This document shows, piece by piece, positions 28,957 through 38,428 of a stretch of 44,396 nucleotides of DNA (positions within the stretch are counted from its first letter, which is position 1; every line of letters starts with the position of its first letter). Source of the DNA: a virus; IMG/VR virus record IMGVR_UViG_3300025327_000057, positions 1-44,396 of that record, one strand, 5' to 3'. The notes under the pieces were generated by a model. It saw only the letters and a program-made list of their open reading frames with translations, was not told where the DNA came from and ran no database searches. The translations under genes were made by a program, and so were the position numbers.

Positions 28957-30450
28957 TCAGACGGTGATGTTGTACAGCGCCGCAGCGACCTCGGAATCGA
29001 AATTGATGAACGCCAGCCGGATCGTCGCCACCAGCTGGTAGGCGTCGTAGTACGGCAGGTAGCTCATCGTCGCGGCGATGCGGCGGCGGTAGCCCACCAC
29101 CCACCCGGGTCGGTAGGCGCACACCGCCTGGCCCTTGGTGTTGTTGGACGGCGTGTCATACGACAGCTTGCCATCGGCTTCTGTCAGCGCCATTTCCGCC
29201 GTGGGAAGGACCGGCACGCCGTAGATCACGCCGACCTCACCGGTCAGGATGCTCGCGCTCTGACCGTACTTGTCGACGGTGACAATCTCGTTGGCTTCGA
29301 GCAGCTTGCCATACGTGCCGCTGTCGACGAGGTAGACGCACTGCTTGGGTTGCAGCGCATAGCGATTCGACATCAGGAACCGCGCCTGGCGCATCAGCGA
29401 GGCCGTCGGCGCGCCCGCCGCATCCAGTTTGTTCGCCGTGGTGGTGACCAGCGGCAGCTTGCGCAGGCCGTCGAACGCCATGAACTTGTTCGTCGCGGCA
29501 GGCGCTTCGTCGTCGCTGTTGATGTTGCCCGTCGCGCCGGCTTCGGTGTCGCCGTTGAGCAGGACGTTGTCGATGGCGTCTTCCATGACGCGGATGGCCT
29601 GCTCCCGGTACAGCGACAACACCGGCACGATGGAGTCCTCGACCAGTTCCGCCGAGAACCCGACCCGGACGGCGAATTTCTTGGCCGAGAGGGTGACTTT
29701 GCCGCTCCCGACCTGGCTGTCAGGCATGGGATTGCCCGCCCCGGACAAGAGCAGATCGTCTTCGTCCTTGGTTTCGGGCACGAAGTACACGGTCGGGTCC
29801 GTGCCTTCGATGGGCAGCTCGAAGGGATTGCTGGGCATTTCAATCGAGCGAAACAACGGGAGAATCACGTTGTCCACGCGCGCCTTGCGCCACAGCTCCG
29901 ATTCCCACAAGTCCGGGACCCACTCGTCGCCGTAGTTGGCGAGAGTCGAATACATCAGCTCATTGGCTTTCATCGCCCGGTAGGACGGCTCTTTGAACGC
30001 CGCCGGATCGAGGCGATAGCCTTCGCGCCAGGCCTTGTCGAGCAGCGCGGTTTTGAAGGCGTCGCTGGGATCGAGCGCCTTGCCCGCGTGACGCAGGCCG
30101 CGCAAGACCGTCCACCCATAGGCCATATCTGCCGCCGACAGATTGTCGTAAGGGGACATGACCTGGATGATCGGGATAAGGGTTTTCGTGGCTGTCTCAT
30201 CGACCGCGACCAGCGCGGTGCGACCTTCGTCACCGCCCTCGTCGTCGGTGTGACCGGGCAGACGGCGGGCCGGTTGGCCCGGGGCCGTTTGCGCCTTGAG
30301 CGCCGCGTTTTCGGCTTCCAGCGTATCGACCCGCGCGGCCTTCTCCACCAGCGCCGTCTGGTCCGCTTCCGCTTGTTTCTGCGCGAGGACGGTATTCACG
30401 CCCTCGGCGATCATCTGCTGCACTTTCGCAGCGTCGAGCGTATCAGGCAT
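28957..30450 (-). CDS. Nested scaffold-capsid product from internal start
   Basis: Inside the fusion gene an ATG at 30450 (MPDTLDAAKVQQMIAEG) is preceded by GGAGGG 7 nt upstream, a stronger ribosome-binding site than many gene starts here. Starting there gives 497 residues containing only scaffold and capsid domains, as in lambda-like nested protease/scaffold genes. It would supply many capsid subunits per protease. The site is seen in the sequence; its use is inference. Confidence 0.6.
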   Translation of the reverse strand: MPDTLDAAKVQQMIAEGVNTVLAQKQAEADQTALVEKAARVDTLEAENAALKAQTAPGQPARRLPGHTDDEGGDEGRTALVAVDETATKTLIPIIQVMSPYDNLSAADMAYGWTVLRGLRHAGKALDPSDAFKTALLDKAWREGYRLDPAAFKEPSYRAMKANELMYSTLANYGDEWVPDLWESELWRKARVDNVILPLFRSIEMPSNPFELPIEGTDPTVYFVPETKDEDDLLLSGAGNPMPDSQVGSGKVTLSAKKFAVRVGFSAELVEDSIVPVLSLYREQAIRVMEDAIDNVLLNGDTEAGATGNINSDDEAPAATNKFMAFDGLRKLPLVTTTANKLDAAGAPTASLMRQARFLMSNRYALQPKQCVYLVDSGTYGKLLEANEIVTVDKYGQSASILTGEVGVIYGVPVLPTAEMALTEADGKLSYDTPSNNTKGQAVCAYRPGWVVGYRRRIAATMSYLPYYDAYQLVATIRLAFINFDSEVAAALYNITV

Positions 30451-31290
30451 GGTATTGCCCTCCATAGGAGATAGTGGTCTGTCGTATGTCTGAGAAGCCC
30501 CGGCTTCGTCGCTCCCCTCCTGGTCTCTGGCCGGGTCGCCCTCACTGGCGGACTCCGGCGCTACCAGATCGGGCACGGTCAGCCCGGCGCTTTTGTAAGC
30601 AAGAGAAACAGTCTGAGCATCACTATAGTGCTTCAGACTGACAGCATCCGTGTCGCGCGGCTCGGCGGGCGTGGGCGTCAGACTGCCCTCGACCACCGGC
30701 CAGCGCTTGATCTGGCCGTCGCGCGCCACCTGGACCATGTGCGGCAAACTGCCGCTGCTCCAGCCCAGCGCGCCGTTCTTGACCAGGTTCCAGACGGCCT
30801 GGGTATAGCGGTCGCGCAGGTCCAACTGCGCTTCGACCCACAACCCCACGTCGTTCGGCGTCATGGACTCCATCTGGCCCACCATCTTGATGCCCAGCGT
30901 GGTGTCCAACCCGTGATGGTAGAGAACGGGGCGGCGCGGGTACCAGTCGAGCGCCAGATCCGTCTCCGGCGTGAAGTATTCGCCTTGCAAGTCTTTGCGC
31001 GCCGGGCTGCCCCAGACGACCAGATAGCCGCCGATGCGCCCGGACTCGTCGAGCGCTTTGACACAGGTCAATTTGCCCATCATGCGCTCGCGCCGCTGGC
31101 GTTCCTCGTCGTCATCCATCATGGGCCTATCACCCTTGACGGCGGCGTTGGCCTGCCTCATCGCCTCACTTTCGTCGCCGGTGTCGTCCAGCACGCGCTC
31201 GAACACTGCGATCCACTGGCGGCGCTGCTCCTCAGAGAGCGCCTGCACGTGCTTTGGGAGCGATGTGTCATTCACAGATTCGTATGGCAT
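28957..31290 (-). CDS. Prohead protease-scaffold-major capsid fusion protein
   Basis: 777 residues, ATG with GGAGG 7 nt upstream. Residues 1-52 look like a ChaB-type domain. Residues about 72-215 read as an S78-type prohead protease, with His at YHHGLD (124-126) and Ser at GWSSGS (176-181) as likely catalytic residues. Residues about 285-340 are helical (scaffold-like). Residues about 370-777 form an HK97-type major capsid domain (SIEMPSNPFELPIEGTDPT, then FGNF-like parts replaced by SAKKFAVRVGFSAELVEDS). These are normally two or three separate genes. An internal start at 30450 may make the scaffold-capsid part separately. Confidence 0.8.
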   Translation of the reverse strand: MPYESVNDTSLPKHVQALSEEQRRQWIAVFERVLDDTGDESEAMRQANAAVKGDRPMMDDDEERQRRERMMGKLTCVKALDESGRIGGYLVVWGSPARKDLQGEYFTPETDLALDWYPRRPVLYHHGLDTTLGIKMVGQMESMTPNDVGLWVEAQLDLRDRYTQAVWNLVKNGALGWSSGSLPHMVQVARDGQIKRWPVVEGSLTPTPAEPRDTDAVSLKHYSDAQTVSLAYKSAGLTVPDLVAPESASEGDPARDQEGSDEAGASQTYDRPLSPMEGNTMPDTLDAAKVQQMIAEGVNTVLAQKQAEADQTALVEKAARVDTLEAENAALKAQTAPGQPARRLPGHTDDEGGDEGRTALVAVDETATKTLIPIIQVMSPYDNLSAADMAYGWTVLRGLRHAGKALDPSDAFKTALLDKAWREGYRLDPAAFKEPSYRAMKANELMYSTLANYGDEWVPDLWESELWRKARVDNVILPLFRSIEMPSNPFELPIEGTDPTVYFVPETKDEDDLLLSGAGNPMPDSQVGSGKVTLSAKKFAVRVGFSAELVEDSIVPVLSLYREQAIRVMEDAIDNVLLNGDTEAGATGNINSDDEAPAATNKFMAFDGLRKLPLVTTTANKLDAAGAPTASLMRQARFLMSNRYALQPKQCVYLVDSGTYGKLLEANEIVTVDKYGQSASILTGEVGVIYGVPVLPTAEMALTEADGKLSYDTPSNNTKGQAVCAYRPGWVVGYRRRIAATMSYLPYYDAYQLVATIRLAFINFDSEVAAALYNITV

Positions 31291-31316: not shown

Positions 31317-31410
31317 TATAATCAAGGTGTGGGCTAGTGCGGCCTCATGAACCGCATGAACCGCGTGTCCTACCGCTTGCCCACACCCTCGCAAGTAGGA
31401 TCTGTAGGAG
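31317..31410 (+). ncRNA. Class A structured leader of HNH gene (copy 1)
   Basis: TATAAT lies at 31317-31322. The RNA would start near the closing stem GTGTGGGC (31327-31334) / GCCCACAC (31379-31386). Inside are hairpin GCGG/CCGC (31339-31342 with 31352-31355) and a short hairpin whose loop holds TCCTAC (31368-31373). GTAGGA, the complement of that loop, occurs twice downstream (31395-31400 and 31404-31409), the second overlapping the ribosome-binding site. The leader at 37822-37917 has the same plan and conserved TAGTGCGG and CCGCATGAA strings, with compensating changes in stem and loop pairing. Confidence 0.7.
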
Positions 31411-31418
31411 AAAAACAA

Positions 31419-32027
31419 GTGCCACGCCATACGATTGATTTCACTTGTGCCAATTGCGGAAAAGAGGTTCACCGAGAACCGCGAAAACTTAATCCGGATC
31501 AAAACCTCGTTTTCTGCAACCGTGAATGTTGGCGCGAATACAGACGGCAAAATCCGATCAAGCCTACCCCCCAATTTTTCGAAGCGGGACGTCAAATGTC
31601 GGCACAGGCCAAACGAAAACCCAAGACATATATCTGTGCCCAGTGCGGAACGGAATTTCAGCGTGTGACCAAATGGCCGGAGCATGATCAGTCGTTTTGT
31701 AGCCGTGAGTGCGCATTCAAGGCTGCTTCTCCCTGGGCACGCTGGAAAAAAGGACGCGAGCGGTCTTCCCCTTCTGCCCGTCAATCCATGAAACGTCGCT
31801 TTATAGATTGTTGTGCTATATGCGGCTGGGCAGAAACGAGTTGCGATGTCCATCACATAATTCAAACGAATACAGGCGGATCGAATAAATTCGATAACCT
31901 TATTATTCTCTGCCCCAATCATCATCGCCTGGCTAATAAAGGACTGATTACCATTGAAGAGCTTTTTGAGGCTTGGCATAATATGAAGCTCCTCCCAGGC
32001 GTTCCAGACAAAGCGGTTGAGGAATAG
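31419..32027 (+). CDS. HNH endonuclease with two zinc-finger motifs
   Basis: 202 residues from GTG at 31419, 8 nt after TAGGAG; an ATG at 31347 falls within the leader and is unlikely. Two Cys-pair motifs (CANCGK, then CNRECW; CAQCGTEF, then CSRECAFK) are followed by a C-terminal HNH domain: CAICGWAE, CDVHHIIQTNTGGSNKFDNL, ILCPNHHRLA. It lies antisense between portal and capsid genes, a usual place for free-standing homing endonucleases to enter without harm. The low GC content relative to both neighbours suggests recent arrival. Confidence 0.88.
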   Translation: MPRHTIDFTCANCGKEVHREPRKLNPDQNLVFCNRECWREYRRQNPIKPTPQFFEAGRQMSAQAKRKPKTYICAQCGTEFQRVTKWPEHDQSFCSRECAFKAASPWARWKKGRERSSPSARQSMKRRFIDCCAICGWAETSCDVHHIIQTNTGGSNKFDNLIILCPNHHRLANKGLITIEELFEAWHNMKLLPGVPDKAVEE

Positions 32028-37821: not shown

Positions 37822-37917
37822 TATAATTCCTGAGTGGAGCTAGTGCGGAATAGCTACCCGCATGAAACCGGAGCCTTACCCGGCGCTCCACACCCCGACA
37901 GTAAGGCCAGTAAGGAG
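37822..37917 (+). ncRNA. Class A structured leader of HNH gene (copy 2)
   Basis: TATAAT at 37822-37827 stands 7-8 nt before the closing stem GTGGAGC (37834-37840) / GCTCCAC (37885-37891). Inside: GCGG/CCGC (37845-37848 with 37858-37861) and CCGG/CCGG (37868-37871 with 37880-37883) with loop CCTTAC (37874-37879). GTAAGG, complementary to the loop, occurs at 37901-37906 and again at 37910-37915 touching the GGAG ribosome-binding site. Stem and loop pairings differ from copy 1 at 31317 but stay complementary, strong evidence for a conserved RNA fold. Confidence 0.7.
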
Positions 37918-37924
37918 AGACCCC

Positions 37925-38428
37925 ATGTGTATCAGGATTCCCCTCACCAAAGGGAAATTTGCCCGCTTTGACGACTGCGATGCGGCGCTGGCGAAGACGA
38001 GTTGGTACTTCCACACTGGCGGCTATGCGGCGCGTAAACCCTACAAAGGATCGCACGAGTACCTGCACCGCACGATAGCCGCACGGTTGCTTGGCCGCGC
38101 GCTCCAACCGGGCGAAGTGGTTGATCACATCAATGGCGATCAACTGGACAATCGCCGCCAGAACATTCGCATAACGTCGCACGCCAAAAACCTCCAAAAC
38201 CAACATAGGCGTTCGGACAACCAATCGGGATACAAAGGCGTTCGATACAATCGTTGGACCAAAGGGCTGCGGTTTCGCTGGTCTGCCGAGATTAAAGCTG
38301 ATGGCATTCGTCATTATCTTGGCTATTTCCCAACCGCTATAGCTGCCGCTGAAGCATACGACGATGCAGCCCGGCGATTGCATGGCAAATTCGCCCGATT
38401 GAATTTCCCTGACTCAGTGAGCGCATGA
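37925..38428 (+). CDS. HNH-AP2 homing endonuclease
   Basis: 167 residues from ATG at 37925 after TAAGGAG; an in-frame ATG at 37862 lies within the leader. An HNH core (YLHRTIAARLLG, then VDHINGDQLDNRRQNIR) is followed by an AP2 DNA-binding domain (QSGYKGVRYNRWTKGLRFRW, then LGYFPTAIAAAEAYDDAAR). This combination is characteristic of phage homing endonucleases. It lies antisense between the small terminase gene and the start of a ParB-like gene which it seems to have broken. Confidence 0.9.
   Translation: MCIRIPLTKGKFARFDDCDAALAKTSWYFHTGGYAARKPYKGSHEYLHRTIAARLLGRALQPGEVVDHINGDQLDNRRQNIRITSHAKNLQNQHRRSDNQSGYKGVRYNRWTKGLRFRWSAEIKADGIRHYLGYFPTAIAAAEAYDDAARRLHGKFARLNFPDSVSA

Follow-up and report, generated by a model that had tools for sequence, protein, structure and literature searches.

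In phage T4 and phage Aeh1, RNA hairpins cover the ribosome-binding site (RBS) of endonuclease genes, namely those of I-TevI, I-TevII and I-TevIII, segB and, in Aeh1, mobE, a group that includes an HNH enzyme and free-standing genes (PMC2988022), and these hairpins are bypassed by a late promoter lying immediately upstream. Three other described RNAs are relevant here. The HIV-1 leader trades dimerisation against pairing at the gag AUG, and RNA homodimers are said to be seldom seen in nature (PMC7357161); the HIV-1 DIS loop has 9 nt, arranged 2-6-1. The pRNA of phage phi29 is a phage three-way-junction RNA whose copies make loop-loop contacts through two different complementary loops, forming rings in DNA packaging. 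HEARO, the IsrB-associated RNA (Rfam RF02033), is a structured RNA that adjoins an HNH-containing gene, and is a guide-type RNA longer than the one discussed below.

The locus described here lies on a tailed-phage contig of 44,396 nt (IMG/VR record IMGVR_UViG_3300025327_000057, positions 1 to 44,396; the whole analysed stretch is called the window), whose large terminase is 42-46% identical to the terminases of podovirus BPP-1, Limnohabitans phage DC33 and Acinetobacter phage 4316. It carries two leaders, A and B, which we interpret as 5' leaders of stand-alone HNH endonuclease genes and as putative members of a structured-RNA family of tailed phages, with further copies elsewhere designated C, D, E and E2. 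Such a leader fits among the RBS-controlling leaders of phage endonucleases, the RNA family itself being previously uncatalogued. As with the T4 and Aeh1 hairpins, an RNA structure is inferred to cover the RBS of a phage endonuclease gene directly downstream; unlike them, the leader has a three-way junction (stems P1, P2 and P3), two alternative partners for its P3 loop and a palindromic P2 loop, and it is common to HNH genes of different types in different viruses. The elements concerned are as follows.

31317 to 31322, plus strand: -10 element TATAAT of leader A, with the transcript start predicted at the 5' strand of P1
31326 to 31387, plus strand: three-way junction of leader A, supported by pair counts, a structural descriptor and model recovery of copy D
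31326 to 31334 with 31379 to 31387, plus strand: P1 of leader A, 9 bp
31337 to 31342 with 31352 to 31357, plus strand: P2 of leader A, GUGCGG/CCGCAU
31343 to 31351, plus strand: P2 loop of leader A, CC-TCATGA-A, with a 6-nt palindrome; predicted kissing or dimerisation loop
31363 to 31365 with 31374 to 31376, plus strand: P3 of leader A
31368 to 31373, plus strand: P3 loop segment TCCTAC of leader A, complement of both downstream repeats and anti-Shine-Dalgarno in sequence
31395 to 31400, plus strand: repeat 1 of leader A, GTAGGA, putative decoy partner of the P3 loop
31404 to 31409 (part listed as 31404 to 31410), plus strand: repeat 2 of leader A, GTAGGA, merging into the Shine-Dalgarno AGGAG
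31419 to 32027, plus strand: HNH endonuclease gene A (PF13391/PF01844), flanked by the capsid-protease gene and the portal gene and antisense to both
37822 to 37827, plus strand: -10 element TATAAT of leader B
37834 to 37893, plus strand: three-way junction of leader B, supported by pair counts and the structural descriptor
37849 to 37857, plus strand: P2 loop of leader B, AA-TAGCTA-C, with a 6-nt palindrome
37875 to 37880, plus strand: P3 loop segment CCTTAC of leader B
37901 to 37917, plus strand: repeats 1 and 2 of leader B, GTAAGG, period 9, the second merging into the Shine-Dalgarno AGGAG
37925 to 38428, plus strand: endonuclease gene B, HNH_3 and AP2-like (PF13392), adjoining the gene for the terminase small subunit, to which it is antisense
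L324 12442 to 13330, minus strand: HNH gene of copy E2 with its leader, in the IMG/VR record of copy E (G002)

We delimit leader A as 31326-31410 and leader B as 37834-37917, the sequence having been examined directly over 31317-31421 and 37822-37927, respectively. The Shine-Dalgarno sequence of leader A lies 8 nt 5' of a GTG start at 31419; gene B starts with ATG at 37925, and the stems of its leader are P1 GTGGAGC/GCTCCAC, P2 GTGCGG/CCGCAT and P3 CCGG/CCGG. The AP2-like end of the gene B protein scores below the Pfam cutoff. BLAST between the two HNH proteins of the window found no similarity; the endonucleases are thus unrelated, and the leader is therefore a module common to different endonuclease genes. 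Both leaders recur unchanged in a near-identical record (IMGVR_UViG_3300025313_000614). As a separate observation on this part of the genome, a 777-aa protein encoded at 28957-31290 on the minus strand has profile matches to head maturation protease as well as to major head protein, which suggests a protease-capsid fusion.

The two leaders were first recognised in a sequence-only reading, which proposed a structured, covarying leader with a closing stem, two hairpins and two downstream complements of the second loop, the second of these touching the RBS. Every element it listed was found in A where it had been placed, with the same plan in B, and the second complement does merge into AGGAG in both. 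The compensating change it claimed for the closing stem and for the loop/repeat pairing also held: in the A/B alignment the structure including the pseudoknot comprises 25 pairs, 96% of cells are paired, and 8 pairs have changed on both sides (four in P1, two in P3 and two in the pseudoknot between P3 loop and repeat), against 0-2 double-compensated pairs when partners are slid by 1-3 columns. One correction is needed, in that A and B share P2 (GUGCGG/CCGCAU) unchanged, its covariation being seen in copies D and E; and the reading missed the 6-nt palindrome that both P2 loops contain, with which a dimer becomes a likely further state. Single-sequence folding was only mildly better than that of shuffled sequences (z-scores of -2.1 and -1.5), so that folding energy alone is insufficient to reveal the leader, which covariation does. 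A motif-free descriptor, requiring only P1, P2, P3, two downstream complements of the P3 loop and then a start codon, was run over the two strands of the 44-kb window and picked out A and B and nothing else. The sequences thus show that the three-way junction is under selection, and the data support an HNH-gene leader with two mutually exclusive P3-loop partners; the two-state RBS switch that the same reading proposed remains inferred rather than shown.

That reading had also called for a search beyond the two copies, and the search returned three motif copies in IMG/VR (C, D and E) and one that shares the architecture only (E2), among them independent copies that precede other HNH genes and show compensating changes beyond those between A and B. 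D (L219) and E (L293) came from an IMG/VR scan for TATRAT...CTAGTG...CATGAA in which P2 was left free; these two are a lower bound, and further copies probably exist. Since MAFFT misaligned E, models were built only from A and B (R1) and from A, B and D (R2). The model from A and B alone recovers D with 34.3 bits (E 6.6e-6 in 41 kb), a copy in which P1, P2, P3 and the repeats all differ from those of A and B and which precedes an Endonuclease_7 gene (PF02945); R2 scores E at 22.7 bits (E 0.0011 in 27 kb). In copy E, P2 has 8 pairs and P3 has 5; the loop is TCCTGA, followed by two TCAGGA copies, the second within AGGAGG, and an HNH_3 gene lies downstream. E2, at a second HNH gene of the same virus (PF01844/PF14279), repeats the architecture without CTAGTG or CATGAA, having P1 GAGTGGC/GCCACTC, P2 GGGA-TGGCCA-TCCC, the P3 loop TCGTCTCA and the repeats TGAGAC and GAGAC. 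Across A, B, D, E and E2, then, P1, P3 and the loop/repeat pairing remain intact despite different sequences, and the P1 pairs adjoining the junction (C-G, G-C) are constant. An HNH gene lies directly downstream of five of the six leaders, C being the exception, with the domain types HNH_2/HNH, HNH_3 plus AP2-like, Endonuclease_7, HNH_3 and HNH/HNH_5; the association of leader and HNH gene is thereby shown. The record with E and E2 also contains an IS605 OrfB/TnpB-like gene (PF01385, PF07282; L325 9993-11045, minus strand).

The sample remains small, at six copies from four viruses, the near-identical record not being counted, and C is its weakest member. Found by an IMG/VR pattern scan 3' of a DNA polymerase gene (L005 6823-6970), it scores 22-28 bits, has a poor P3, and matches its repeats over no more than 5 and 4 nt; downstream there is no HNH gene but a 12-codon open reading frame (ORF), which overlaps the stop of the leader ORF (ATGA), and a terminator-like hairpin. 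This copy may be a remnant or decayed cassette, or a stand-alone RNA. A strict descriptor that includes the promoter found A, B, D, E and one probable chance match in 2.8 Mb, against 10 matches in 27.8 Mb of shuffled DNA. A loose structural descriptor gave 75 matches, duplicates included, against 33 in shuffled DNA, and with so high a false-positive rate only the stricter forms count. Exact-core pattern matches in IMG/VR and GTDB contigs, other than C, A/B and the near-identical record, were attributed to chance, being coding or lacking P1 and the repeats. Among the rejected candidates, L179 and L028 have P1-like inverted repeats around the core and neither has tandem repeats, L179 reading as zinc-ribbon coding sequence; L079 has an R2 score as high as that of C, but lacks P3 and the repeats. 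BLAST of the leaders against a phage collection gave two chance 19-nt matches for A and none for B and C; the HNH homologues of cultured phages lie mostly in operons, with no such leader at any of them; R2 found no match in 300 genomes of one bacterial order; and the TATRAT/CTAGTG pattern found only two chance matches in 694 genomes of two phyla.

Each leader is preceded by its own promoter-like element. The exact hexamer TATAAT lies 5' of A, B, D, E and E2, and TATGAT 5' of C, this TATAAT-like box being within about 25 bases upstream of P1. A consensus scan called no -35 box for leader A, and no late promoter was found inside the leader, the only -10 match near it being that 5' of P1. Since this element sits at the 5' edge of P1, the whole leader is in every transcript. 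At the other end, A, B, D and E have two non-overlapping 6-mer complements of the P3 loop, an arrangement that arose in shuffled tails 1, 6, 112 and 75 times, respectively, out of 20,000 each. In A, B and E, repeat 2 overlaps the Shine-Dalgarno sequence and complements the P3 loop, the pairing itself being inferred. The better-pairing repeat varies among the leaders, and without a consistent difference in strength between copy 1 and copy 2 the favoured state cannot be read from the sequence.

The simplest rival explanation, and a possible one, is plain masking of the RBS, in which the leader, like the T4 and Aeh1 hairpins, would reduce or hold back the synthesis of an expensive endonuclease with neither a signal nor a dimer involved, and the two repeats would merely tune the level. 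In its favour, RBS-covering RNA is known at stand-alone phage HNH genes (segB, mobE, I-TevI-III; PMC2988022), and the Shine-Dalgarno sequence lies within repeat 2 in A, B and E. Against it, a simple hairpin would be enough for this purpose, leaving the three-way junction, the conserved decoy copy and six palindromic loops unneeded, and the promoter position puts the whole leader on every transcript, unlike the late-promoter bypass in T4.

The P2 loops carry the second line of evidence. From A to E2 they read CC-TCATGA-A, AA-TAGCTA-C, CT-TGATCA, AC-TTCGAA-C, C-TGATCA and TGGCCA, so that all six contain a 6-nt palindrome, five of these being different. Palindromes of this length occur in the loops of 87 of 3523 perfect control hairpins (2.5%), and the chance of such a set in random loops of the same lengths is ~5e-9, or ~1e-7 without C. 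A descriptor that includes the palindrome, and neither motif nor promoter nor HNH gene, has E, E2, A, D and B as its best matches in 2.86 Mb, its three further weak matches being near the shuffled level (roughly 11 distinct sites in 22.9 Mb). Because the letters vary and self-complementarity is kept, the pattern speaks for one molecule of the RNA pairing with another identical one. Moreover, the window virus and E's virus have two leaders each, and both the palindromes and the loop/repeat pairs differ within each virus; with a private palindrome and loop/repeat pair, each leader should recognise only itself. We read the palindromic loops as a self-pairing signature of a leader able to homodimerise; dimerisation is an inference, the folding tools used omitting kissing loops.

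The comparison with known dimers is instructive. Like the HIV-1 DIS kissing loop, the leader has a 6-nt palindrome in an apical loop, and the P2 loops of A, B and D have 9 nt, the palindrome being preceded by 2 nt and followed by 1 nt, as in the DIS; unlike it, this is a phage mRNA leader with no sequence relationship, a dimerisation that is only inferred, and no conservation of the flanking purines that the DIS requires. The likeness to phi29 pRNA, a phage three-way-junction RNA making loop-loop contacts, is likewise partial: the leader has one self-complementary loop in an mRNA and fails the criterion for a phi29-type pRNA, since the P3 loop pairs with the downstream repeats and not with the P2 loop. 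The inverted repeats might also act as DNA, as an operator or as a recombination or insertion end of the HNH cassette. P2 is indeed an inverted repeat with a near-central palindrome, and HNH cassettes look like mobile insertions; we consider this very unlikely, since a protein site would keep its sequence, whereas in these leaders it is the pairing that is kept while the letters vary, the centres of palindrome and stem lie half a base or more apart in A-E, and the P3/repeat complementarity stops at the Shine-Dalgarno sequence, which is sensible only in mRNA.

A riboswitch, in which the junction GCUAGUG...CAUGAA would bind a small molecule or ion and thereby set the P3-loop choice, perhaps with the dimer as part of the ligand-bound form, must also be considered. 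A and B, neither of which came from a pattern search, have exactly the same junction elements GC-UA-G and CAU-GAA but changed stems, and a three-way junction with a pseudoknot pairing to the Shine-Dalgarno sequence is a riboswitch-like plan. We nevertheless regard it as unlikely: the conservation of CTAGTG and CATGAA in C, D and E is a product of the search patterns, E2 has the architecture without the motif, a gene context consisting only of endonucleases suggests no metabolite, and no Rfam riboswitch matches. Indeed, no Rfam 15 family reached its gathering threshold in the window, and with E up to 5 none covered A, B, D, E or E2, in agreement with the sequence-only reading, which could match the leader to no named family; HEARO, too, is set apart by the absence of any Rfam match for the leader. 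The open-access literature searched, with few subscription papers, yielded the T4 endonuclease hairpins and general RNA-dimer reviews and no such family.

It is also improbable, in our view, that the AUG of CAUGAA serves as the start of a small ORF in the leader, the translation of which would open up the fold and be coupled to that of the HNH gene. This frame is open in all five motif copies (product of shuffled open fractions about 0.04); in A and B it is in phase with the HNH gene, and in C, D and E it stops beside the start codon, with the ATGA overlap in C. On the other hand, no Shine-Dalgarno sequence lies 5' of that AUG, its AU is paired in P2, and compensation is seen in the base pairs but no relatedness among the encoded peptides. 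Apart from its function, at 31347-31418 and 37862-37924 of the window the reading frame that begins with the ATG of CATGAA has no stop and is in phase with the HNH gene, so gene callers may place HNH protein starts inside the RNA leader.

The reading we prefer is a translational switch between an RBS-covered and a decoy-paired state, in a leader able to homodimerise; with no expression or probing data, we consider it likely, at a probability of about 0.68. According to this model, transcription from the TATAAT promoter would begin at the 5' strand of P1 and the RNA would fold into the P1-P2-P3 junction, whose P3 loop would mimic the anti-Shine-Dalgarno sequence and hold only one of its two tandem complements at a time: with copy 2 bound, the RBS would be covered (OFF), and with copy 1, the decoy, bound, it would be free (ON). 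As the palindrome differs in almost every leader, two identical transcripts could join by a P2 kissing loop, and dimerisation, and hence the amount of the leader's own mRNA, would bias which copy the P3 loop holds, the endonuclease then being made at a chosen transcript level or time. The direction of the effect is the most inferential part of all: repression at few transcripts and relief at many is a likely one on the analogy of T4 endonucleases, which are synthesised only late (PMC2988022), and negative feedback is equally open. A bolder formulation, which we put forward as a hypothesis with rather less than even odds, is that leaders homodimerising through P2 kissing loops are protein-free sensors of their own transcript concentration that time the synthesis of HNH homing endonucleases, the private palindrome and loop/repeat pair of each gene preventing cross-talk within one phage.

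The control of phage homing endonucleases has so far been known mainly from T4-like hairpins. The leaders described here present a single architecture attached, across different viruses, to five or more arrangements of HNH domains, each leader with its own self-pairing and RBS-pairing sequences, and if the dimer does regulate translation, they would constitute a compact, orthogonal and protein-free gene switch that reads the abundance of its own message.
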